Part shown: positions 11,389 through 61,800 of the stretch, in pieces
How positions within the stretch are numbered: position 1 is the stretch's first letter
How the letters are laid out: each line of letters opens with the position of its first letter
Assembly (NCBI RefSeq): GCF_048771995.1
Contig: NC_133026.1
Location: 118,749,501-118,813,500 of the forward strand
Length of the DNA stretch: 64,000 bases
Source: Taeniopygia guttata
Taxonomy: Eukaryota; Chordata; Aves; Passeriformes; Estrildidae
Direction: 5' to 3'
Notes under the pieces: model-generated
Told to the model about the DNA's origin: nothing
What the model saw: the letters and a program-made list of their open reading frames with translations, nothing else
Databases searched by the model: none
Position numbers and translations under genes: made by a program

Positions 11389-11635
11389 GCTTGGATTGTA
11401 TAGTTTATACAGATTTGAGGTGATTTAATTCAAACATAAATTTTCCTAGCATGCGAAAGACGTTCTGGAGAATGTGACTGCATTTTTGCCCGAAAATATT
11501 TCCCTTCCCAGTTTGCTATTTAAGGGACTGCTTAAATTTAAAAATAAATTTACCTGTCTCCTTTTACTGCCTACCTGAAAGCAACAGAGGTTTGGAAGGC
11601 TGTTGGGAAATCATCTTCATGTCTCTCTCTCACAG

Positions 11636-11852
11636 AAGTGGCAGTGCACAGAGGATGCTTCTGGCAAACTTCGAATTCACAAGTGCAAGGTGCCGAGCGA
11701 CATCCTCGCCATCAGAAAGAGAACGCGCAGCCTCCACTCCCGTGGCTACAGCGGCAAAGACAAAGACTGCAACTGTGGAGACACTGATTACCGGAACAGC
11801 AGGACCCAAAGGAAAAATCAAAGACAGTTCCTGAGAAACCCTAATGTGCAAA
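11636..11852 (+). CDS. SULF1: SULF1 coding exon, hydrophilic domain (first exon in window)
   Basis: SULF1 is a secreted or cell-surface sulfatase that removes 6-O-sulfate from heparan sulfate and so tunes growth-factor signalling. This exon begins after a CTCTCTCACAG acceptor and ends before GTAAGT. It gives 72 codons plus one base. The peptide opens [18 protein letters not shown] and contains [11 protein letters not shown] and the basic run [13 protein letters not shown], which I recognise as the part of SULF1 between the catalytic and C-terminal domains. This charged region binds heparan sulfate in the family. Identification is by remembered family sequence, not by a search. Confidence 0.95.
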
Positions 11853-15015: not shown

Positions 15016-15262
15016 AATACAAACCTCGATTTGTTCACACTCGCCAAACCCGGTCCTTGTCTGTGGAATTTGAAGGTGAGATATATGACATAAATCTGGA
15101 AGAAGAAGAACTGCAGGTGTTGAGGACCAGAAGTATCACCAAGCGTCACAATGCTGGAAGTGAGGGGGAAGGAGAGGAAACTGCTCGTGCTGCTCGGGAC
15201 ACAATGGTCGCTGATGGCACTGATGCTATCAGTCAACCCAGCTCTGTCAGAGTGACACACAA
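15016..15262 (+). CDS. SULF1: SULF1 coding exon with processing-site region
   Basis: The last base of the previous exon plus AA restores a Lys codon, giving [14 protein letters not shown]. The peptide continues [14 protein letters not shown] and an acidic run, EEEEL. It then has RSITKRH, a dibasic site of furin type; SULF proteins are known to be cut by furin-type proteases into two linked subunits, but the exact site here is inference. The stretch after it ([15 protein letters not shown]) is low-complexity and looks fast-evolving. The exon ends SSVRVTH plus AA before GTATGA, 247 nt. Confidence 0.95.
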
Positions 15263-16572
<1,310 letters not shown>

Positions 16573-16635
16573 TGAAGTCTTTACACTGATAACTTTTCAA
16601 AGAATAATTCTGACTCAGAAATATTCTCTTTGCAG

Positions 16636-16730
16636 ATCGAAGCTCTCCAAGACAAAATTAAGAATTTGAGGGAAGTTAGAGGACACCTAAAAAGAAGAAA
16701 ACCAGATGAATGTGATTGTAGTAAACAGAG
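16636..16730 (+). CDS. SULF1: SULF1 coding exon, coiled-coil segment
   Basis: Small 95-nt exon after TCTCTTTGCAG. The peptide [20 protein letters not shown] has a leucine/isoleucine spacing that fits a short coiled coil. It is followed by [12 protein letters not shown], with a Cys pair. The exon ends after two bases of a Ser codon (AG) before GTAAGA. It sits only 87 bp after the previous exon. Confidence 0.95.
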
Positions 16731-17695
<965 letters not shown>

Positions 17696-17868
17696 AGAAG
17701 CAGCACAGGAGGTGGATGGCAAACTGCAGCTGTTCAAAGAGAACCGGAGAAGGAAGAAGGAGCGGAAGGGGAAAAGGCGCCAGAAGAAAGGAGATGAGTG
17801 TAGCCTTCCCGGGCTGACATGTTTTACTCATGACAACAACCACTGGCAAACAGCACCGTTCTGGAACT
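17696..17868 (+). CDS. SULF1: SULF1 coding exon with strongly basic cluster
   Basis: This 173-nt exon encodes [16 protein letters not shown], then the very basic [17 protein letters not shown], then [16 protein letters not shown] and QTAPFWN. Basic clusters of this kind bind the sulfated substrate and keep SULF1 at the cell surface, as is known for the family. The second half begins the conserved C-terminal domain. It ends one base into a Leu codon before GTGAGT. Confidence 0.96.
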
Positions 17869-20493
<2,625 letters not shown>

Positions 20494-20527
20494 GAAATAA
20501 AGATGGAGGAAGCTATGATCCACACAG
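20494..20527 (+). CDS. SULF1: SULF1 34-nt penultimate coding exon (frame switch candidate)
   Basis: This very short exon encodes GNKDGGSYDPH and ends two bases into an Arg codon before GTATCC. It matches the end of SULF1 as known in other vertebrates, just before the final GxLWDGWEG. Its length, 34 nt, is not a multiple of three, so leaving it out shifts the frame of the last exon. It sits 366 bp after the solo LTR and 5.2 kb before the last exon. Confidence 0.93.
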
Positions 20528-23500
20528 GTATCCACACTTTTTTATTCTCCTCAGCAGCTTCTTTCCAAATAATTGCATGACTCCAGTCCATTTCAACTAA
20601 TGTCTGTATCCTGCCATGTTGCACACAATGTAGCTTTTGATGCATGCATTTTCTAACTACCCTACACTGAACTTGGCCATTGTTTTTTAGATCTACCATT
20701 CTGCATTTAACGTTGCTCATTGTCATAGCAAGACTTCATTCAGTTCATATTTCATGCCTGTACTCCTTAGATGTTTGCCCAAGGAAAATTTTACAGGAAG
20801 AATCACCTCTTTTGGGTTGCTCTTGTGTTATCATGTTGATTTTGGATGGGTTGGAGGTGTTTTTCTGGTTTTATTTAATAGGTCTTCACAGCTGCTTTTT
20901 AAATGTAAACTAAGTATGCTTAGAAGGCTTTCTGGAGTACAAAGAACCTAGTCAAACCTATGGAAGCAAAGCAAAATCTTCTCACTGGCTTTTGGAAATA
21001 TTGGCAGATACCACTTTAGGCAAAAGCAATGCTCAATATGAGCGGCCTGTGCTCAGAAGCCAGCAGGAGAGTGTTCAATTCAAGTATGGCAGAAGGATGA
21101 AGCTTCTTTGGGCTGGGACCAGATCAGACAAGCATAAAATAAAATTTCCTAAAAATGTTGAATTATTTGAACTGAGGAAAGGCACCAGGTGAGGGTTTTT
21201 TAAACCTAACACTTGAACATGAGGCATACATGACAGACACCTCTTTGAAAGTATATTTTTCTGTTTAAAAATATACTTATTGTACCTACATGTTTATCAT
21301 TCAGAGCTCTGTGTCTCCTGGTGGAGAAACCAGACAAACATAAAGCAAAACCTGAAGAGAAGGAAAAAACTTCATGTCTTAACAGTACTGCCTTTGCTAT
21401 TCATTGAGCAGTACTTGTTCTCAGGGTGAAAAACAGATTAACATCTGTGGAGTGTCATATTTAGACTGGACTCCTTTTCACAGTTTTTCAGTTTTATACA
21501 TTTTCACCTCTATACACTTTGGAGGAGTAGCTGCTGATAGACATTGCTTACTTGAAAAGTAAACAAGGGAGTCTAAGTGGTATACAAGTCTACATAAATC
21601 CTTTTTCACAGAGTCTTCTGGAAAGAACCTTTTCATTAGTTTCTAGCAGTCAGATAAAAATTAAGCTAATGTATTTCAATGTATAGATCTGCAATTTAAA
21701 CAGCTAAACTTTCTTTTGCAGGCAGTTTTGTATTTTCACACCTGAGTAGTTTTGGGATCTAGGAAAATTATAAACTTTTATTTGGTTTATATCCCACTGT
21801 TTGCATTGCTCAAATGCAAACTGGTGAGAACTGGTTGCTACAATGATAAAAAGAAATCCCTGTAATTATGCTTTTAAGTCTTTCATTAGAAGCAATCCTT
21901 GTAAGTAAGCATTCCTCATTTTAACTCCAGATCTAACAGAAATAGCATTTTTGAATTGTAGGATTACATGAAATAGTAGAGCACACAGGAGTAATCTTTA
22001 AATTACATCTTCCTACACTGTTTAGCAACAAAAACATCTTAACTTTTGATACCAAAGAACATACCATAAACATTTTGCTACTGTGATAAATAGCAGTGTA
22101 ATATAACATAAGCAATATTGTTCTGTGTCATGACATTGCAGATACTCAGTTTCTCAATTTACACATTCAATATTTTGGTTCAAGCCCAAACGTGGTAGGA
22201 TGTTTTTCTTTTCTTAAACAAAACAAAACCAACAAAACAAAACAAAAATTAACAAATTCCATTTATCAGGAGTCATTACAATGATCTAGTAGAGGATCCT
22301 TTTGTTGCTGCCTGGAGAGAACAAATGGAATAACAATGGAAGGTCATCTGAACTGCTCCTTAGGCTTCCTTCAGATCATGTAGATTCTCCACTCAGACCT
22401 GTTTCCAGTTCAAAATGCCCTGAGTTAGTGAAGCACTGCCTGTGCTGCAGTGAAGCACTGGGCCAACAGGCCCTTGTGGGAATAGCCAGACTGATGCTGT
22501 TTGCTTTGCACAAAGGGACAGAGAGCTTCAGCAGGGAAGAACTGGTGCCACTTCTGCCCTGTGACCCACAGAGTGTGGCTCTGCAGATAAGGCTGATCAC
22601 AGGATGTGTGAACTGCACATTCCTCTCTCCTCTCCTACTTGTCTGAAGTTTTTCAAAGCCACCAAGGATATGATTTTACCCACCTGTCTTTAGTCTCAAA
22701 GGAGACATATTCAAATCTCTTACTAGGTTTGAGATAAAACAGACACAGATGGCATGCCAGGGTAGGATAAATGGAGAGTAAAGCTTAACTAAAGGTTGAT
22801 CTACAAATAAACAAACAACAAAACAACAAAAAAGGAGCAAATTTTGCTTTGAACAGCTAGCACCATTTTTTTTTCTCTTTTGGATCTATGTCATAGCTGA
22901 AAAATTCCAAAATGTTGATCAAGGAAACTACTGCCCTGCTGTTTCTCAAATGCAACTCATCTGCACTTTCCCATTTCATACTTACTTGTAACAAAATTTC
23001 TTACAGGGGAAAATCCTCTTCTTTCCTCTCCTCTTCCCTCTGTTTGCTTTAATTTCAGTGGGAGACTTTTCATGCTTACTGCAAGTTGTGGAATTAAACT
23101 GTGAAGTAATTTGCTCAGTCAACCAAAATAGCTCTAGGACCTTGAGACTTTGCTTCCCTGTTTGTTTAACATATATGAATATAAGCCATCTCTGTCTTCA
23201 AACAAGCTATTTTCCTCTGTGTGACACAAAGATCGTGGAACAATTCCCAGTGCCTTCCCAGCTGTGAAACTTCTCTGAGACTGCAGAAACAGTGCCACAT
23301 TTAGAGAGCAAAAAATAGATCCAGAGTAAAGGACAAGCCCTGACTCAGACTTTCTGCTATTTTGTAGGAACACTACAAACTCCTTGCTGATCTTATTCCT
23401 GTGCAGCACAGCCCCACTGCCCTACTGCTGAGCCTCCTCAGAAACCCTGTTCTTCTTCACTGGTTCCCAGGCATCCCCACTGCCCAACTTGCCACCCAGC

Positions 23501-25716
23501 TCAAGCCTCTGTTCCCCTGCTGGGGATGGGCAGCAGAGGCCCTCCTGGCCCCAAGTGCAGCTTTATGGGTTCTGCTTTGCCCCCAGTCCCCTGGTCTGTC
23601 CCTAAACCTGTTACCAGTCAAACAGCATCACTCCTGTTCCAGTTCCTGCCATAACATAACAACCCACGTGACTGTCCCTACAACAGTTTCTTTTCCTATA
23701 CAGGCTCTGACTTGGCAAAGGAAAAATAAAACCAAAACTCTACCAATAAAAATAGTAACAGAGAAAATTAAATATTGTTTCATCTGCAAGTGGTTAATAT
23801 CTTCAAGGATTTAGTGACTAAATTCCTTGCAAAAGTAGCCCCCTGCCATGATGTTTTCTAGGGCCCTTTATGCCTCTAGGCACCAGAAGAGTAAATCTTC
23901 TTTCTTGAAATCTCTTTGGTATTTAATGATCTTTTGTTTCAGGGAACAAATTATCCATAATGTGGCTTACAAAGATGGCTCTCATGTGGCCATGCCATCA
24001 CTTCATTTCTCTTGTCTGCTTCAGGAAAGAAAGAAGATGCTCTGTTACAGCTGTTCTACCAAATCCAAAAAGCTTTTGTTTCTTCCTGGATCAGGAAGAC
24101 TGTTAAATGTTTGCCAAAAAAAAAAAAATTCTAGAATTTGATATTTAAAAAATAAAATACTTAAATTTTATGTTGCAAAATATTTCCAATTAAGAGCAAA
24201 GGTTCAGGTGTTTTCATATAAGGAAAGTGGTCTCCTTTTGGTGGAGCAGAGTAAGGCCCCACATTATAAGAAAATATCAAGGATTTTTTCTGACCGTAAT
24301 GGTATTTTTCTGACTTTCCATATGATGGACTAAATATTGGAGATATTCTTTTACTGTGAAATCCCAAGCTAGTAAGAAGCAAAGAATGTAATCTATGATG
24401 TCTTCTGTTCTATTTGAATAAAGATAATGGGCAACTTAAAATACAAACAAATTAATGGAGATGCCAAGAACCATCTGTGGGGATGTAGGACTCAATATAG
24501 ATGAGAATTTGAGCTAAATTCGCATGATTGGAATGTAGCCACTTGAACTTCTAAAGTAATTGCTACTAGCCTACCTGCCTGTACAATTTTCATGAAGAGA
24601 ATAAATCAGTAAGTTAATTACTAAAGATTGGCTGCAACATCATTTGTAAGGGCAAAATTTTCACTTTCCCTGACAAACTTTTGCATTGCTTGATTCGTCT
24701 TCCCTTGTAGACCACCTTGTTGATAAAATCTTTCCAGTGAATTCAGTCTGTCCAGTGAATTAAGTAAAATGGTGTTGTTCAGTGTTACTTTTCAATATAA
24801 AAGGGCTTCACATCACAGGGGATAATCTGAGTCACTATAGTTACTGTAGCAAATTTTAAAATATTTTGGAAATGGGTTTCTTTTGTGTCTTTCATTTTCT
24901 GGCTGTGATCAATAAAAAAAAAAATGCAGCTCTGTTGTTGCTATAGGCCCATATCTATACCCTTTATTCAGACTTATTATTTCAGAAGGCTGCTATATAT
25001 TTTCCTTGAAAGCTTTTTAAAAAAACCTTAGGAAGATTTCTCTGTGTATATTTTAACACTATTTTACACAGTGGTGCTGTCCTATAAATTAATTCACACC
25101 AGTTTTTTACAGCTTTCATTTCCCCTAATTGCTTCATGTAAAATAAATGAATGTTTACTAAATAGATTAAAACCCCCTTTGGCTAACATTTACTAAACAA
25201 AATGTGTCTAGTTAGTTTGTAGACCGTATTTTTAAACTATCCAGAAACAAAATTCATGTGGGCATTGGAGTTCAGGTCACCAATGGTTTCAGAGTTAGTC
25301 CCCTCTTTTATACTTAACCATTGTTTGATTATTGCATGTTTTGCTGGAGTGCTCAAGAAAGGCAACTGGATTATTTGTGTATTGAAACATTTTTCCTGCC
25401 TTGAAATATCAGAGGAAGGACTTATCTCTGACTGTCATCACAAAGCCCCATTAGACCAGATTTTGTTCTTTTTTCACTCAGCCCAGGGATGCAGCAGGAG
25501 ACAGGGAGCTCTTGCTGTGTGTTTAGCAGGGCTGTGAACATACCCAAGGCCAGAACCATTTATCTGATGACAGAAGAGGTGGAGTGTCTTACACTTTAAG
25601 CTACCTACTTTATGAACAGTGATGTTTTCAAGCCAATTGAAGTAGAAACACACATGGAAGCTTTGCTTGCACCTTTAATAGTGTTCACCAGTAGGCTTTA
25701 TTCTTTCTCTCAACAG
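20528..25716 (+). other. SULF1: SULF1 last coding intron
   Basis: Intron of 5,189 bp, donor GTATCC and acceptor TTTCTCTCAACAG, which is followed at once by AG and so makes a tandem AGAG acceptor. It has A/C-rich simple sequence near 22,217-22,250 and 22,801-22,832 and a C-rich, CT-rich stretch at about 23,400-23,620. I found no exon or clear transposon in it. Confidence 0.85.
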
Positions 25717-25747
25717 AGGACACTTATGGGATGGATGGGAAGGCTAA
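25717..25747 (+). CDS. SULF1: SULF1 terminal coding segment and stop
   Basis: The A at 25717 completes the Arg codon of the previous exon. It is followed by GHLWDGWEG and TAA (25745-25747), the expected SULF1 C-terminus. Only 31 nt of this large last exon are coding in the normal frame. The same exon carries a long open frame shifted by one base (see the next entry). Confidence 0.96.
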
Positions 25748-26540
25748 GCTGCCCATTTTCACTGGCGACATTGACTGGCAAGGACTGGAAGACTTGTACA
25801 GTGTGAATGAAAGTGTATATGAATACAGACACAACTTTAGACTTAGTCTGGCTGACTGGACTAATTACTTGAAGGATGTAGATAGAATGTTTGCACTGCT
25901 GAACAGTTACTACCAGCAAAATAAACCAGACAAGGATAACACTGGTCAAAGCAACAGGGACGGGGACGAATCATCCACGCCATTCACCTTGGTGGAAATG
26001 ACTTCTGCTGAGGAGTCCAGCGGCCTGATTGCAGAAGAGTTGCAGCTTATTGTGCCAACAGACTTTGCAGCCCTTGCTTTGAGCACGGTGAATTTAAGTC
26101 AGGAGAGGAAACTTGAATTAAACAATGATATTCCTGAGAAAAGTAGTTTGAATGATGCACACTGGAGAAATAGTCATCCAGCTGAAAAATGGATGGAGGA
26201 TAAAGAATCGGACCGTTTTGATATGGATTTCAGTGGAAACGGTTTGATAGAGTTGGAATCCCGGCATAGCTTCATGCTACAGCCCATCAGCATTCCTCAA
26301 AAAGACACTCATCAGGATAGTGACACTGTGGAAGATATATTTGAAGACCAAATGTATCTTCCCATGAGGTCTGATGAACCCTTCGTTCATCAGACCATAA
26401 ACATATCCATTAGGGATTCACCTGTCAATACCCAGGAAGAAGGAACTTTCTTAAAAAAAGCCAAACAGAGTCTTGCGGGAGAAAGTTCACAAATCCTAAA
26501 TACAGAAGGCAGTGCCTCAGCTCCACTCTCCTTGGATTAG
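25717..26540 (+). CDS. SULF1: Alternative-frame SULF1 C-terminal extension (predicted long isoform)
   Basis: Reading one base out of the normal frame, the last exon is open from its acceptor to TAG at 26538-26540: EDTYG, then 269 codons from the Met at 25731. The frame matches exactly if the 34-nt exon is skipped (G from 19248 + AG). The peptide is hydrophilic and acidic with no membrane span; it includes DWQGLEDLYSVNES, LSLADWTNYLKDVDR and DIFEDQMYLP, and three N-glycosylation sequons (NES, NLS, NIS). Codon use looks like real coding sequence, with many GNN and RNY codons and mixed residues. The Met at 25731 also has a good initiation context (G at -3, G at +4), so internal start is a second option. 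Function is unknown. I have an unverified memory of a related frame at mammalian SULF1, so it may already be annotated elsewhere. Confidence 0.72.
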
Positions 26541-27393
26541 ATCAAGTTGTAAACCATGAAATAAGTTCTCCTTTTTCTTATTAGCAAACTAATAAAGGTA
26601 ATCAAGACAACTGACATTCCATGGTTATTGTAGATACATTTTGCAGCTAAATTGAGCCCAGTTCAGTATTTGTGCATTTTTTTTTTTAATTCACATGCAC
26701 ATATTTGCATTGTAATTTTCCACACTGGGAAGCAAGATTTCCAGTTTTTCATTAAAAGAAACAGTGTTAACTTTCAAATGCAGTAGCACATTCTCTGAAA
26801 GCTAAAACTTATTTCTTCCAAAAGGATGTTCAAGTCACTTTCTCTATTTCCAAATGGTCCCGCCATGACTGAGTGTTTCAGTTCACCCAGTATACCTGCA
26901 TAATGTCTTTTTCATCAATTATTTTAACCACTGGCAATTCTTAATGCCATGCTTTCAAGTAAAATGCACTTTTAAAATCTGTATGCCATACCATTTATGC
27001 TTCTAATAACTTACAGGTTCTTAGTTTGCTCATTGTCTTGTGGAATTATGAAACCAATAAACAGACTGACCTGAAAGAGGTAAACACCATGGATTGTGGA
27101 AGAAGACTCTTCAAATATTATCTTAGCAAATATTGCATGATTTTTTTACTTTATTAAATTTAATCTCAGAAAGGTATGGCTAATAATTATTAACTGTAGA
27201 AGGATTTGTTTAAATTGGATTGTTTCCTTATATGTTGATATTGTCAGTATTAAAATGCCATTAATTTTTCTGACTTTTTTTTTTTTTCTGATACCGGTAG
27301 AAAGGTTTACATCAGTACATAAATGTTTTTGTTGCCCCACCTGATTTTTATTATTCTGAGCAATACCTTGAAAGCATTATTATAATTTTGAGT

Positions 27394-27429
27394 CTTTAAT
27401 GCCTTTTCTGTTTTGAAAAGGCATTAAAG
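27394..27429 (+). promoter_or_regulatory. Perfect 15-bp hairpin in SULF1 3' UTR
   Basis: CTTTAATGCCTTTTC at 27394-27408 pairs perfectly with GAAAAGGCATTAAAG at 27415-27429, leaving a 6-nt loop, TGTTTT. A G-U pair can extend it by one. A poly(A) signal follows 5 nt later (27435). It could affect RNA processing or stability, but no function is shown. Confidence 0.8.
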
Positions 27430-27434
27430 GGAAT

Positions 27435-27440
27435 AATAAA
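27435..27440 (+). terminator. Candidate poly(A) signal after the hairpin
   Basis: AATAAA within GAATAATAAAATC. It could end a shorter SULF1 message. Two further upstream signals are at 26591-26596 and 27056-27061. Confidence 0.4.
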
Positions 27441-28107
27441 ATCATGTTAGGTTTCCATTATTTTAGACACAAAAAGCACATGAAAGTGAAAAATAGTACT
27501 TTAGTAATAATTTTTGTTGTTGTATTCTAAATTTTCTCTTGAACTTTACCAAACATTAAATCATATGAAGTACAATACAAAAATTACTTCAAAAATCTGT
27601 ATTACTCAAAACTTAAATCTTTTCCCTTGCTTTTTTATAAATTTTTAAATAATTATCACAACAGCAACAAAAGAGAATTACCTCAAACAGACGTAATTCC
27701 ACAATGTCCAACTCACAGGTGTGTTTCCTACCTGTTACATTTTATTTAGTGTAGTGAATATTTTTTGGCTATTGCAAGCACTGCAGGTTAAACTTACATT
27801 CATTACATTGTATTTTAAGTTGAAACTTTTTAAAAAGGAGATTCTTTTAGTAGGATTTTAATAATTTTAAGAAGCAGTCTTTTTGATGGACTCTGTAAAT
27901 ATGTTAAAATTACTAGTTCTTTATCTGATGTATGTGTCATGGGCTGATTGATAGAAACAAATATTTATGGTCATGAATGATGCTATTTGTACATAGGTTT
28001 CAAGTTACTAGGATACAAACTGTGTTTTTAAATCTTGTATAATATTTCTGTGATACTTTTATAGTACAATTCTGGCTTCAGGAAAGTCTAGAAGCAATAT
28101 TTCTTGA

Positions 28108-36214: not shown

Positions 36215-38478
36215 TCCAAACACCTTTAAGCCAAGGAAATTTATTTCTCAGGACAAGAAGTGCAGAAGCCAATTATCTCAGGAAGTGTGTGCTAACTGAG
36301 AACACGCTGCTGTATCTGGTGGCTGCATGAAAGGAAAAGACATTCTCAAGCTTAACCCAAAAAAGGCTGTTAATATGGACAGAATAGTAGGAAGAGGTCA
36401 AAACAATACTCCTCTATGTTTGGGGTAGAAGAATTGGAGTTTTCAGACAGGAAGAGTAAGAATTGTTACAAACTACATAAATGGACTGACACATTCTGAA
36501 ATAAGCAGCCCCGTGGGTATTCCCATGTGCTGGTCAAGAAGACCCAGGTGATGACAAAAGGCAGCTGGCAAAGGCAGACAGTGAAATCTACACTTCCCTG
36601 GACAATTTAATGGATGCCACGGAGAGTACTGCCTTTATTTTCAAGGACTTGGTTCCATATAATGTTTAATCAATATACATTTTCTAAATTGAAAAATTAA
36701 ATCAGGAATACCTGTTCAAAAATATGTAGAAGATCTGCTCTTTCCTATTTATTTTCACACAAGTTCTCTACTCAGCAAAATCCAAACCAGACTATCACTA
36801 AGTCCTCTTAAAAGACTGCTTTTTCACTTCCTACACGTCTAAGACTTCCCCTGCAGGGCACAATACAGCCTTGACTTCTCAGTGTCCAACTGACAATTTT
36901 CTGCCTCTGAGACATCATTAGTACCTCATGAGCATGGCACTACAAAGCCTCCAGAACAAGAAATGAAATGCCAAGCACATTTGATTAGAAAGTTTAAGCA
37001 TCTCCCAGGCAGAGAGTAATTTGGAATAAACAAAGGCCACATCACATCCTGTGAGTCCACACTTGCCGATAATTTCTATTCTTAGCTCTTCACCCGGAGG
37101 GCCAAAGGAGAGACAAACTCACTCTCTGCCTTCACAGGAGCTTTCAGTGAAGCTGAGAAAAGGAAAGGCAGACATGTGTGAGACACACCACACAGCCAGG
37201 ACCTCCAGGCTTGTCCCACCAGCCTGCCCAGCACCGGGCAGCCGGAGAGGCAGAAGGGTGGCAGAAAGCAGAGGGTCTGAGCCAGCCTCCCTTCCCAGCC
37301 GCCCTGGGTGTCGGGGTGCTCCGTGCCTCGGCGGTACCAGGAGTGCAGGAAGAGCTTCCAAGCTGGCACCATGGTGGGCAAGCTGCTTGCAGCCCCTAGA
37401 GGGGCTCCTCTGCTCACTCCTGCAGCCTGAACTCTGCTGCCTGGCTGCGAGGGACCCGCCAGGTCCCAGACACCAGACGAGGCCATTACCTCTCCCTCGG
37501 GACTTTGCCACTGAAGCTGAGATACACTGGCATGCAATTCTGAAGGACAGCCAAACTTCCTATCAAGCTATAACCAGCTGTTTTCTTCTTCAAGAAAATA
37601 TGGATTTGGTGCTAATAACAGCCACCCAAATAACATCGCAGAAATGTGCACATATCTGATCTGGTGTGTGTGTATGATTCCTACATCTTAATGTTAATAA
37701 AACCAATACTGAATTTTTTTACTTCAAGCATTACAGTACCTACATACTTCGTGAAGAATGACTACATCCCATCAGATGAAAACTAATGCACATTTTTGAT
37801 AGGATAAAGATGTTACAACTGAACATTTGCAAACATTACCTGATGCATAACTCTTGTATGGCTTGACATGTTATTAACAGTACTTTAAACCTTATGTTAT
37901 TTTTAAATTTAATGATTACACCTGAAAATAGCCCCTTTCAAATTCAGTTGCAGTAATGTCTTTAAAAGCAAGCTTTAAATTTAATTTGCTGCACATACAA
38001 TTATCCAAATAAGTTGCATAGTTTAAATAAGTTCAGTTGTGCTTTGTAGCAGAACTCACAGTAATCACTCATCTCTTAAAAATACAATTTGTGGATACAA
38101 AGTTGACAATACATTTAAGCATTTTTGTGAGTCTAGACATCAACAATATGAGTTTTTGTCACTCTTCCACTGACTTCTGCTGTTTGTAACATCTCAACTT
38201 TACAATTATATTAGATCAGAGCATGGACATTTAATGGACACATCTGAAATAATTACAAACACAATTTTTAAAACTCCATTGTCAGGAGGGGAGAAATAAG
38301 AACTCGGGTTGGTTTGAGGTATCCAGCCCTCAGGAACATATTATGGTTGTTTGCATCAAGCTTTGTTGGTTTTATCACGTGTTACATTTAGATTAAAAAT
38401 AGAAGGCACAGGTGTTTTACAAGGCGCCGTAACTAAGTCAACCAACAAAACTAAATATTACATTACCAAGCCATGGGT

Positions 38479-38924
38479 CTATATCTCAACAGTGACTTCT
38501 TTCAATGCATTTTCATTTGAGGAATTTATTGCTTCTGAAAAAGGGCCGGGGTAGGTCTGTGCTAAGCAGTTCATTCCTTGTGCCACACTGATGTCTCCTT
38601 GGGAACTGAAGGTAGGGCAGGATCTAGTTCGTGCATAGTTTTGTTGGGGTCCAGCTTGTCCAACCATCTCACTCACAGTGTTCACCGGTGAAGCCCTCCA
38701 ACTCTGTCTCTGCAGTTGTTCTTCTTTACACTTTATGGAATACCAGGCCAGGAAAATAAAAAAGAATCCCACAAACTTGAGAGCAGCTGCCAACCCAAAG
38801 TAGACAAAACGAAACGAGGTGACATCGTATTCCCAACAAGATCCTTGTACGCCACAATCCTGTTGCCAAAGCATGCACGTGGTGTCAATAACAGCCCCAA
38901 AATAAATTGGAGTGGGAATGTAAG
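38479..38924 (-). CDS. SLCO5A1: SLCO5A1 last coding exon: end of TM11, TM12 and cytoplasmic tail
   Basis: SLCO5A1 (OATP5A1) belongs to the organic anion transporting polypeptides, 12-span plasma-membrane or internal-membrane carriers; its substrate is not well established. The exon starts after TTTTTGTTTCAG and encodes YIPTPIYFGAVIDTTC, MLWQQDCGVQGSCWEYDVTS and the last membrane span FRFVYFGLAAALKFVGFFFI. It then has a charged tail with ARTRSCPTFSSQGD and AQTYPGPFSEAI, ending VTVEI and TAG. The match to known SLCO5A1 is close through TM12 and looser in the tail. The final V-E-I fits a class II PDZ-binding pattern, which is only a suggestion. Confidence 0.96.
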
Positions 38925-40152
38925 CTGAAACAAAAATAGCAAGAGAAATAATATGTGTTAGCATATTGTGGAAAACTTCTAAAGAAACTGTATGTCCCAG
39001 CCAAAGAGTGTAGGTTGAATATTTTTGAGATTTCTACACTGCTGTTCTCATAAGAAATGTAAAACATGGAAAACTGGCCAGCCAATCTTTCCACCAATAC
39101 TATTTACCCCACACATGAAACCTACCACAAATAGGAGAGAATTGAAAGAAGGCAATGCAGCAGCACCTTACAACAGATACTACCATCTGCTTTCCCCAAA
39201 CAGCTCTTCTTGAACTACGTGTCCCCGACAAAAAAAATCCAATTTTGTTCTCAGGTAGATAGAAGGTGAAATACATTACCTCCATAGCATTACCTGCTGA
39301 ACATCCTTTGCCCATGAGCTGGGAAAGGAGCTGGTTTTAGATTAAGGTGAAAAAGCACTGAAGATCACAAAATATTTTTGAAGATAGATTTAAGGGGTAA
39401 GACCATTAAGATAACAAATTTCCTTTTGAATAGAACTTCCCAAGAAACAGACTAACTTCTAAGGCAGCAAAAAATGCAGCCAGTCCAAGGAATGCTCCTG
39501 CTTTCTCCAGAAATACATCTTTAAGATGAGATTGAAACATCCTTCCTCAAACAAAACTTGAAGATGCAGCTTTATGGGCTCCTCTTGTTCTCTTAGAATA
39601 GAACTTGCTTGCTCTAGTCATGTATTTCATACTAACTGAACACCTGGAGTGTTCTTTATGGGCAGGATTTTAGAAATTCAAGAGCTTGAAAGAGAATACT
39701 TTGAAAAATAAAGACTTTTAATATCTATCCATTTTTGCTTTGAAACACTTGAAAGACATTAAATAATATTAGAAGACATTAAGACATTAAATAACAAATG
39801 CTTATTTTAAAATTAGAAAAACTATTTTTATTGCTGAAAGCAACAGAATTCTGTTTTTTGAAAGCTAAAAAATCCTTGTAAAATAGTATTTAGTAACTAT
39901 TAATTTTTAAATACAATTTGAAGCTGTAATAATTTATCTTTTTGCGAAACAATGTTGTTGTAGAAAGTCAGTAGCCTAAAAAAGTAAATTAACCACATTT
40001 TCAGATGCAATCTTTTCAGAAGTTATTAATTTTAGATTACTAATACAGTTAGCCAAGCAATTAGTTGCATATTTATGGCATTTTAATACTTTTATGGTGC
40101 ATTTAAGCTGAACATGGCCTTTATGGAAATGCTGAGCTACTGTAAGACTTAC
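38925..40152 (-). other. SLCO5A1: SLCO5A1 intron
   Basis: Intron of 1,228 bp between the last two coding exons, donor GTAAGT (minus strand) and acceptor TTTTGTTTCAG. It is AT-rich; a partial direct repeat of GACATTAAATAA-type words lies near 39,757-39,797. Nothing else was seen. Confidence 0.9.
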
Positions 40153-55265: not shown

Positions 55266-58711
<3,446 letters not shown>

Positions 58712-58876
58712 CAGTGTAGATGCTGGCATTGGAAGCTGGGATGCCAAACTGTGACTCGATGAACTTGGGAATGAAGGTAATAAAAGCTGTGACAATGGCA
58801 CTCTCAGCTGTGTATGACAAACTCACAAAAAGGAATGTCATGTTGCTTAAGATCCTGACAGCTGCTCTTGGAAGCT
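58712..58876 (-). CDS. SLCO5A1: SLCO5A1 coding exon: TM7 (first SLCO5A1 exon in window)
   Basis: 165 nt on the minus strand after ATTTTATAG. AG completes a codon, then LPRAAVRILSNMTFLFVSLS, YTAESAIVTAFITFIPKFIE and SQFGIPASNASIYT, ending on the first base of Gly before GTAAGG. It gives membrane span 7 and the following loop, with sequons NMT and NAS. A second AG (ATAGAG) lies two bases on, but using it would leave the exon in another phase. Upstream exons for the N-terminal half are beyond the window. Confidence 0.93.
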
Positions 58877-61800
58877 CTATAAAATGACAAAAATGACAAA
58901 CAAATGTTATAAACACTGAGTGAGAAACAAAAGCAAACTGAAACAGAACCAACTGATTTTCTTTGAGACGCTGGCAATAATGGCTTGCTAGCAGCTGGTA
59001 CATTTGCTAGACAGAAGGGAGAGTGCATACTTGGGATTGCAACCCTTGCTCCCTGCTCTGACCCCATCTCACTGCCTCACTCAGGGCCACAATCCCACTT
59101 GGCACTAACACAACTGAGGTGTGTATTAAAAAACCATCTGAAAGAACAGATAGTAACAACACAACAGAAAGAAAAACAGCAATAAAATGTAGAGATTTTG
59201 GAATTATTCTGGTATCTTGGGATTTTTTCTGAGATAACACATACCACACTGCTGAACTGACATTACTGAGATTTGCACTCCATAGGAGGAAAAAAGATCC
59301 TATAATCCCCCTGTTATTGTCTGCTTCAAGGACCATGCTTGGAAAGCTGGGGCAATAATAATATTCTAATTTGAAAGGGGAACCAAAATATTTTTAGTTA
59401 AACATTTTTCTACATTATTTTAAAGTATTTACAATTATGCAGACAAAGCATAATGAAAAAATTACATCAATGATATCATGGAATCTCAACATACATTACA
59501 TACAAAATATTCTCAGAAGGGATAAAGCAATCAATTAAAAAATGAGAGTACATCATTAACTTAAATTGAAAAAGTATTCATAGATGTTGCAATTATTCTC
59601 AAATCAATTATCAAACCCCCGTGAAATTCAGCACTGTAGTTAAATTAAACATTTACATACTTTTAATTTAGTCCTGCAGTGATGTCAAATTATCATCACC
59701 CTATTCAGCACTTAATTTTTTTCGGATTAGATGCTGTGATTTTAAACACGTCTTCTTTTCCTTGGGGCTTGTTTTACACCAGATCAAATTTTTTTCAAGT
59801 GTTGTATCTAATCTACTATAGTTCAGATTTTTTTCATTTGCTTTTCACTTGGTACTGAAATAGAATAGTGCTTGAATCAAAGCCAGTTGAATTCAATGAC
59901 AAGAGTACCCATTAGAAATACATGTTGAGCAAGAACAACCGAGAATTCTACTGATGTTAAAAGTTGTCAAGACAAAAATCTGTCTCATTTTCTCCACTGA
60001 CTCCAGTAGGTTATCTGTATAAAATCAAACATAATTTCACATGTCATGTCAAAACTTGTCAAACTGCAAATTAGCACTTAAGCTGTCTGACTGCATCCAG
60101 TATTAGCTTATGCCAGTTGTCAAAATTTATACTGAATTCATTATGACTACTAGGTTTATAATTTTAATGCAGTCAAATGCTCTCCTGCTACATCTATGAA
60201 GAAACTTATATTAAATGTTAAATACAAAGATTGGTGGAAATAACTAATGAATAAATCATATTAAGAATCAATCATGTATTTTAATGTTTTTACCACCTAC
60301 AGATATAAAAAATTTAAAAAAAGGTGGTACTGTTTGCAATAGAAACAACAAGAGCAAACAGTTATGACCATGCCGATGCTGCTGTGAGAAAGGAGTCAGG
60401 AAGCAGAAAGAAGGATTGGTACCGCTGGATGGAAACTGAGCTACTTAGTGGCAGCTGCTCAACTGGGTTTCAAATGTGGGAGAAAATAAGGTATCATCAC
60501 AGAAAGATAATTTTATTAGGATGATGAACTGAGTGTTCTTTGTAGAAATTAATTAGTAGTTCTTGGCTGAGAGTTGAACTCATGGTCTTTGCTAAACTGA
60601 TTATTTTAAAGAGTCTCGTCCAGACATCATAATACGTGGTAAAGTTTGCCCTTCCTGGTTAAAAACTGAGCTTCAGGAAAATGTATGCTTTAGAATTTTC
60701 AGTCAACTAGAGAATTAATTTTGCAAAGAACTGCAGAGCTAATGAACATTTTGCTCCGGCATTTGTATGTAGAGTTGTATTTCTGTTGACTCCTACTTAC
60801 ATCTCATCTGAGCACTCAGGCTAAAGGTCATTATTCATTTCAAAACTAATTAGTATTTTGAAATGGGATTTTTCCTGTTAAGTAGACAAAACTTAATGTC
60901 TTGGAATAAGCACAAGTTCTCTTATACCCATGTGAGGGGCTCTTCAGAGAACAGCTTTGCTGATTACTATAAATTTTGGCATGAAATAAAGAGTTTATTT
61001 CTGCATGCCACATTAATGCACGCCACCTGGATCACTTAAGAGTTGATCTTTGTGGTTTATAAACAGCAATTGTCTGGCATACAAGGGGAAGTGCTATATA
61101 GTAAGAAACTTGGAAATAAAAACACTCATTCAGAGTTAGTCTTTCCCTGATTTCCTCCCATGATCACCATCAAACCCGGTGTGACAGCACCTATACTACA
61201 CTTCTGAATTTAAAAACCTATAATAAAAAAAGTACTATTAAGTAACTCATTATCTTTCAACCACAATAACTGTAGTAAAAAGCAAGAACGCTAAAAAGTT
61301 TAAGAATCCTTTAGACTACATAATCAATCACGCTCTTAAAACATTTCTATGTCAAATTATTTTTGTGTGGCTAGGTTTTGATTTCAAGACCATTATTAAA
61401 CCTGTCAGGTTAGATTTTTTGGAAAGACATCTTCAAAAGACATTGCATATTTTTGCAAATTTGCATCAGAAACAAACCTAGAGAAATTGCTATTTCCCTC
61501 ATTCTGTCATCTAAACTAAAAAAACTCTATCAATGACACTCCTAGAACTAAAACAGTATTTTAGCATGGCTGCAAACATGTTTGTATTTCTGTGCAGTAA
61601 CTCAAATTTTAACATACCATCTTTTTTTTTTTTTCTTTTTCCCCCAATAAGTAGTATATAACTAAGAGTAAATTGAAACCTTCCTTGCTGGACTGGTTTG
61701 CTAGACTACTGGCAATTTTCTTCCTTTCATGATCTTTGACAGTATTTTTTCTTGGGTCGGTATTCATTTTTCTTTCACTCGTGTGCTGGACCATTGCTTG

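Follow-up and report, generated by a model that had tools for sequence, protein, structure and literature searches.

The SULF1 gene contained a second long reading frame in its last exon, and this frame is real, coding, ancient and joined to SULF1 in database proteins. SULF1 edits heparan sulfate and thereby tunes Wnt, FGF and other signals. We propose that the gene has two ends, chosen by inclusion or skipping of a 34-nt exon. The best explanation, which we hold with somewhat better than even confidence, is that skipping of this exon would yield a long form of SULF1 that is secreted and may bear a glycosaminoglycan chain on its tail.

Exon layout and the two endings of SULF1

The window (the whole 64,000-nucleotide stretch of DNA analysed) covered the 3′ portion of SULF1, encoded on the forward strand like all SULF1 features given here. 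SULF1 consisted of 19 coding exons over approximately 62 kb, as determined with a pattern match for the 34-nt exon and with tblastn of the database protein P0072, which covered 40 kb upstream of the window and its initial 27 kb. Coding exon 10 was placed at 11633–11851, with approximate edges taken from the protein match. The seven coding exons 11–17 (15016–19248) had AG/GT borders, a continuous SULF1 frame and tblastn matches, with edges at 15016–15262, 16452–16548, 16636–16730, 17138–17203, 17696–17868, 18878–19020 and 19125–19248. Coding exon 18 of 19, the penultimate one, was the 34-nt exon at 20494–20527. Its donor (CAG|GTATCC) had the lowest score of eight donors (0.49, based on matrix frequencies), in favour of skipping. 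Next came the weak donor of the preceding exon (0.57; CAG|GTACAA, 19249–19254), which is common to both SULF1 forms.

The start of the last exon (25717–25747) was read in two frames. With the 34-nt exon included, SULF1 ended in ...LWDGWEG at the canonical stop (TAA, 25745–25747) and the remainder of the last exon was 3′ UTR. With this exon skipped, position 19248 was joined to 25717 and no stop occurred before 26540, as determined from the AG/GT flanks and the translation. Since 34 is 1 mod 3, skipping would shift the frame by one base, bypass the normal stop and produce a tail of approximately 274 residues. The tail frame (25717–26540) shared its first codon with the G at 19248, started with EDTYGMDGKAK (junction peptide GLET|EDTYGMDGK, continuing to 274 new residues) and ended with TAG at 26538–26540. 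It had 274 codons counted from the acceptor and 269 from the Met codon at 25731, while the open frame from stop to stop (25695–26540) had 281 codons and was the longest such frame listed for the window. The initial annotation had claimed a frame open past the SULF1 stop, with these codon counts and an exact join upon skipping, and both the frame and the join were confirmed. With the new stop still within the last exon, the transcript is not expected to undergo nonsense-mediated decay. Within the same genome, the tail was found at this locus alone at E 0.001, and an Rfam search of 19000–28000 yielded nothing at the gathering threshold.

Three protein searches returned at least 230 distinct relatives of the tail, from birds to sharks. 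The first search listed 71 of 71 relatives, the second 120 of 137 and the third 120 of 136, including 39 new ones. Birds, turtles, a crocodilian, lizards, snakes, marsupials, placental mammals, frogs, a salamander, caecilians, coelacanth, sturgeons, gar, bichirs, teleosts including zebrafish, sharks and rays were represented among the listed relatives. A counterpart at mammalian SULF1, suggested in the initial annotation, indeed exists, with macaque, gibbon, rabbit, cattle and others among the matches listed.

Of the 159 listed proteins with more than 400 residues, 153 had SULF1 joined directly to the tail; 137 of these matched the predicted spacing, 14 had one additional residue and two had one residue fewer. 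The pattern C-NPRPKGLE... joined to the tail recognized 152 of the 159 (136 at the predicted spacing), and P0126, with the same spacing, was recognized by eye. The other six long proteins were joined to the tail differently. The peptide of the 34-nt exon (DGGSY or KDGG) was found in the last 330 residues of none of the 159 proteins. The closest database protein, P0072 (H0ZMH3_TAEGU, 1120 aa), was a SULF1–tail fusion with one difference from the window in 274 tail residues, and this long form retained the sulfatase domain (PF00884, E 1.2e-45) and DUF3740 (PF12548, E 5.5e-68). P0177 was a complete fusion of 1115 aa from the SULF1 N-terminus to the tail, encoded on a contig of 4251 nt. Since this contig is shorter than the unspliced gene (~62 kb here), it is the best sign of a real RNA. 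Both P0072 and P0177 started with SULF1's own N-terminus. Fusions of approximately 1120 residues were named "Sulf-1 isoform X" models in the databases, and most names were automatic models. The long SULF1 is known as a database isoform, and a study of it as a biological object was not found in the open-licence literature. P0072 and the listed fusions support the isoform with a long acidic C-terminal domain that the initial annotation had derived from skipping of the 34-nt exon, and the tail is very probably reached by this route.

In one of the six proteins with other joins, P0165 from the giant panda, the tail frame was reached without the 124-nt exon and with the 34-nt exon kept. As both exons are 1 mod 3, P0165 represents a second possible route into the tail frame.

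Tail composition and a candidate glycosaminoglycan site

Among the 274 residues of the tail in the window, 52 were acidic, 23 basic and 12 proline; cysteine and PxxP were absent. Acidic residues outnumbered basic residues in all 158 tails of at least 200 residues, taken from the 160 rows left after removal of rows at least 95% alike, and cysteine was absent from the aligned columns in 131 of the 160 rows. The AlphaFold2 model of the 274-residue tail, based on an alignment of 42 rows (the window and 41 of the 71 proteins of the first search), had a mean pLDDT of 47, with helices at residues 22–28 and 45–68 and the rest unstructured, and was too poor for a fold search. According to this model, the tail is probably mostly disordered. 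No Pfam family was detected in the tail, and solved structures gave nothing below E 0.099. A Pfam phage tail protein (E 0.021, 15.4 bits) was under its cut-off of 25 and was rejected. The most constrained tail residues were G5, W48, F59, N137, L62 and R38, and the 25 most constrained columns included a Ser-Gly site and a C-terminal E-G-S. An N-glycosylation sequon, Asn-Glu-Ser, was located at tail residues 31–33 (25806–25814), with Asn in 200 of 222 and Ser in 201 of 223 listed rows. The tails contained 3.9 N-x-S/T each versus 2.7 in composition shuffles, a descriptive comparison of related tails. As the N-terminus and the sulfatase and hydrophilic domains are retained in the long form, the tail should be located outside the cell, which we consider likely.

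The Ser-Gly site, D-F-S-G-N-G (26226–26243, with Ser173 at 26232–26234), is a candidate glycosaminoglycan attachment site. Position 173 was Ser in 226 of 230 listed tails, position 174 Gly in 226 of 229 and position 172 Phe in 200 of 230. The Ser was lost and the tail kept in the caecilian proteins P0147 and P0166, the monitor lizard protein P0132 and P0051; P0060 had a gap at the site. Since these four of 230 listed tails lacked the Ser, the site is not indispensable. Together with its upstream acidic residues the site reads EDKESDRFDMDFSGNG here, an acidic Ser-Gly as would be expected of a part-time proteoglycan, and the upstream acidity was weaker in mammals, for example EGTNHLETDFSGDG in macaque. 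Acidic Ser-Gly, defined as having at least two acidic residues in the preceding six, occurred 1.65 times per tail versus 0.37 times in shuffles, an excess given without a P value as the tails are related. A second acidic Ser-Gly (EESSG here, 26019–26024) was kept in many lineages, as EDESSG in sharks and rays and as EEASGAG in carps, and was present in none of the 15 placental rows checked.

A similar site is known from the paralogue SULF2. The available part of a preprint (PMC13405426) reports that SULF2 is modified with chondroitin sulfate at Ser583 in EDQDDKDGGDFSGTGG (EDQDDKD-GGDFSGTGG), that SULF1 is unmodified and that the modification requires the acidic cluster as well as the Ser-Gly segment. 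In the same text, the motif increased secretion when put into SULF1, as well as activity in a tryptophan version, while the Ser-Gly segment without its acidic cluster was insufficient in SULF1. Activity is reported to be higher with the chain in this preprint, whereas the accessible text of PMC10721642 describes higher SULF2 activity after chain removal, and the direction of any chain effect on activity is disputed. The hydrophilic domain of SULF2 in the same genome had EEEDRDMGEYSGTG at the position of the chondroitin sulfate site, and the matching SULF1 exon (15016–15262) contained no Ser-Gly. Like the SULF2 site as described in the available parts of PMC13405426 and PMC10721642, the SULF1 tail has an acidic stretch followed by D-F-S-G-x-G. 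In both cases the site falls within a disordered stretch of an endosulfatase that is secreted (disorder and secretion of the tail being predicted), and the hexapeptides, D-F-S-G-N-G in the tail and D-F-S-G-T-G in SULF2, are one residue apart. The SULF2 site, however, is in the hydrophilic domain of the ordinary form, whereas the candidate site of SULF1 is in an optional tail.

We hypothesize that the Ser of D-F-S-G-N-G may be the residue on which a xylosyltransferase starts a chain of chondroitin (or heparan) sulfate, and we give a glycosaminoglycan at this residue an even chance. Long SULF1 would then be a part-time proteoglycan, whereas the paralogue SULF2 has a site of this kind in the hydrophilic domain, and splicing would set the secretion, retention and activity of SULF1. 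Switching between bare and glycosaminoglycan-bearing SULF1 by the 34-nt exon is plausible. The same long isoform might instead use its tail for protein interaction or stability, free of any sugar chain and with the Ser-Gly kept otherwise (e.g. as a binding motif or for phosphorylation), a serious possibility that we consider somewhat improbable. The conserved block around LSLADWTNYLKDVDRMFALLNSYY (tail residues 45–68, 25848–25919) fits such a role. This block, DW-NYLKDVDR-FALL, formed the only longer predicted helix (pLDDT block means up to 74, in a model that is poor as a whole), and with W48, F59, L62 and K53 it was constrained as strongly as the Ser-Gly site. The two caecilians and the monitor lizard that keep the tail without the Ser point in the same direction, and destabilizing frameshift tails are a described class in the available part of PMC7392665. 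The SULF1 tail, however, is unlike that class in being neither proline-rich nor equipped with PxxP. The excess of acidic Ser-Gly over shuffles and the near-identity of the hexapeptide to the established SULF2 site argue for the sugar chain.

Coding status and start of translation

The normal mRNA is highly unlikely to yield the tail as a separate small protein through internal initiation or reinitiation, whether at the ATG at 25731–25733 or at ATGs in the 34-nt exon. The Met codon at 25731 was not conserved as a start: of the 223 listed rows, 175 had Met at this position, 40 had Thr and 8 had Lys. This replacement in 48 of 223 rows argues against internal initiation, which had been offered as an alternative in the initial annotation and was not supported. 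Some databases do list an uncharacterized protein, such as LOC104639323, that starts in the 34-nt exon, and several database entries begin within this exon (MEEAMIHTED...). RNA or models that retain the exon would be expected to give such entries, and the ATGs of the exon follow from the SULF1 frame. In addition, the conserved sequon would be useless in a protein devoid of a signal peptide.

In first-order Markov resampling of 25745–26540 (three frames of the given strand), the largest open run was 223 codons versus 264 in the real sequence, and none of 2000 resamples reached 260 codons, in agreement with the claim that such a run is unlikely to arise by chance. The decisive evidence for coding is conservation rather than the length of the frame. 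In a substitution-only neutral simulation of 264 codons, the frame stayed intact in 151 of 300 runs at 95% identity, in 13 at 80%, in 2 at 60% and in none at 47%. An explanation of the frame as open by chance, or as a conserved element of the 3′ UTR without coding function, with which the constraint on the first exon bases by the other frame would be consistent, can be dismissed almost completely given the resampled lengths, the lack of intact neutral runs at 47% identity and the conservation at the protein level out to sharks. We regard it as virtually certain that the tail is coding, and its coding nature and splicing together as near certain. Tail-encoding DNA was confirmed in none of the viral contigs and prokaryote genome contigs searched.

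A tail relic in SULF2 and related splice systems

In SULF2 of the same genome (C22), a 31-nt exon, also 1 mod 3, was located at the matching place (L008:2911–2941), and the SULF2 ending (GQLWEGWEG, with the stop at L008:4360–4362) matched that of SULF1. Past this stop, a broken relic of the SULF1 tail with a frameshift and a stop was observed at L008:4363–4530 (C22, ~15372363–15372530). The relic reads EDNCGKAGKVNLPQ...EAGLESMYRLNEL-stop, its first residues crossing the stop region, with NYNIHLKDWLSFEAEIDRLFALV in the next frame. A SULF1-tail profile ranked these two pieces highest among 5554 six-frame pieces, with E values of 6.2e-5 and 1.4e-3 (the latter piece overlapping doubly read bases), versus 7.4 for the next piece. 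In a DNA comparison of the 200 bases past each stop, the score was 64, whereas 2000 shuffles scored at most 47 and 298 real downstream windows at most 39. No intact tail of SULF2 was encountered, and no Sulf-2 name occurred among the abbreviated names of the matches listed in the third search, which was not aimed at SULF2.

The relic indicates that the two-ended design is older than the split of SULF1 and SULF2, that is, the tail appears to predate the split and its frame is broken in SULF2 of this bird. The pre-split age is apparently new, as are the SULF2-like Ser-Gly in an acidic, mostly disordered tail and the non-conserved Met at 25731. Of the isoform reading in the initial annotation, the fusion itself stood, while the Ser-Gly site, the SULF2 relic and the reach to sharks had gone unnoticed. 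A wider reading, tentative and somewhat short of an even chance, is that inclusion or skipping of the 34-nt exon would switch SULF1 from a bare enzyme to a chain-bearing form, that a SULF1 splice form from sharks to mammals would be a proteoglycan, and that SULF2, whose pre-split tail has decayed in this bird, relies on a separate site within its hydrophilic domain.

Proteoglycans made part-time by splicing are known from CD44 (exon v3) and APP lacking exon 15, in both of which the frame is kept. As proposed for the candidate site of SULF1, splicing decides there whether the glycosaminoglycan site is present, but skipping in SULF1 opens a second frame past the stop. Skipping of penultimate exons into coding 3′ UTRs was described by Preussner et al. 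(2020; PMC7392665), the available part of which includes mouse Sulf1 among four genes with printed splicing-sensitive RT-PCR primers for this skipping. In that class of splicing-accessible coding 3′ UTRs, as predicted for SULF1, loss of a frame-breaking penultimate exon opens a frame in the supposed 3′ UTR, and no decay is expected. With thresholds of at least 20 new residues, at least 10 residues beyond the old stop and a new stop in the last exon, SULF1 would by its sequence belong to this class: skipping of its penultimate exon shifts the frame (34 nt, exon 18 of 19), and 274 new residues, 264 of them past the old stop, are followed by a new stop in the last exon. Tails of the class are proline- and PxxP-rich, disordered and destabilizing in the same partial source, whereas the SULF1 tail is acidic with relatives as far as sharks, and lacks the proline and PxxP enrichment that is typical of the class but not defining.

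Shorter, inactive SULF1 and SULF2 variants without exons 6, 7, 8 and 18 (Gill, Dhoot et al.) are cited in the available text of PMC8999074, and this exon 18 may be the 34-nt exon that is coding exon 18 here. In the accessible parts of PMC11311815 and PMC4399393, mentions of SULF1 were confined to a reference and to expression tables. The open-licence literature searched gave no account of a function of the tail or of a sugar site in it. The papers on the chain, as far as their available parts go, treat SULF1 as being without the chain of SULF2, apparently from the short form. If the conserved long form has a SULF2-like site, one of the two endings of SULF1 is missing from the comparison of SULF1 with SULF2, and their difference in sugar modification becomes testable with one splice-specific construct.

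Three minor features were observed downstream of the tail frame. An AATAAA at 26591–26596, 50 bases past the alternative stop, is a possible, weak proximal poly(A) signal that, if used, would end the mRNA just past the tail frame. This word was common in the window (142 versus 88 expected), and it was set aside as backing for a proximal poly(A) site. Two long open frames overlapped at 37030–37659 (forward strand, 209 codons) and 37082–37567 (reverse strand, 161 codons), which may merely reflect base composition. Finally, open frames on the reverse strand at 38479–39033 and 58656–59006 resembled exons of an organic-anion transporter arranged tail to tail with SULF1, which we take to be a member of the SLCO family, probably SLCO5A1.
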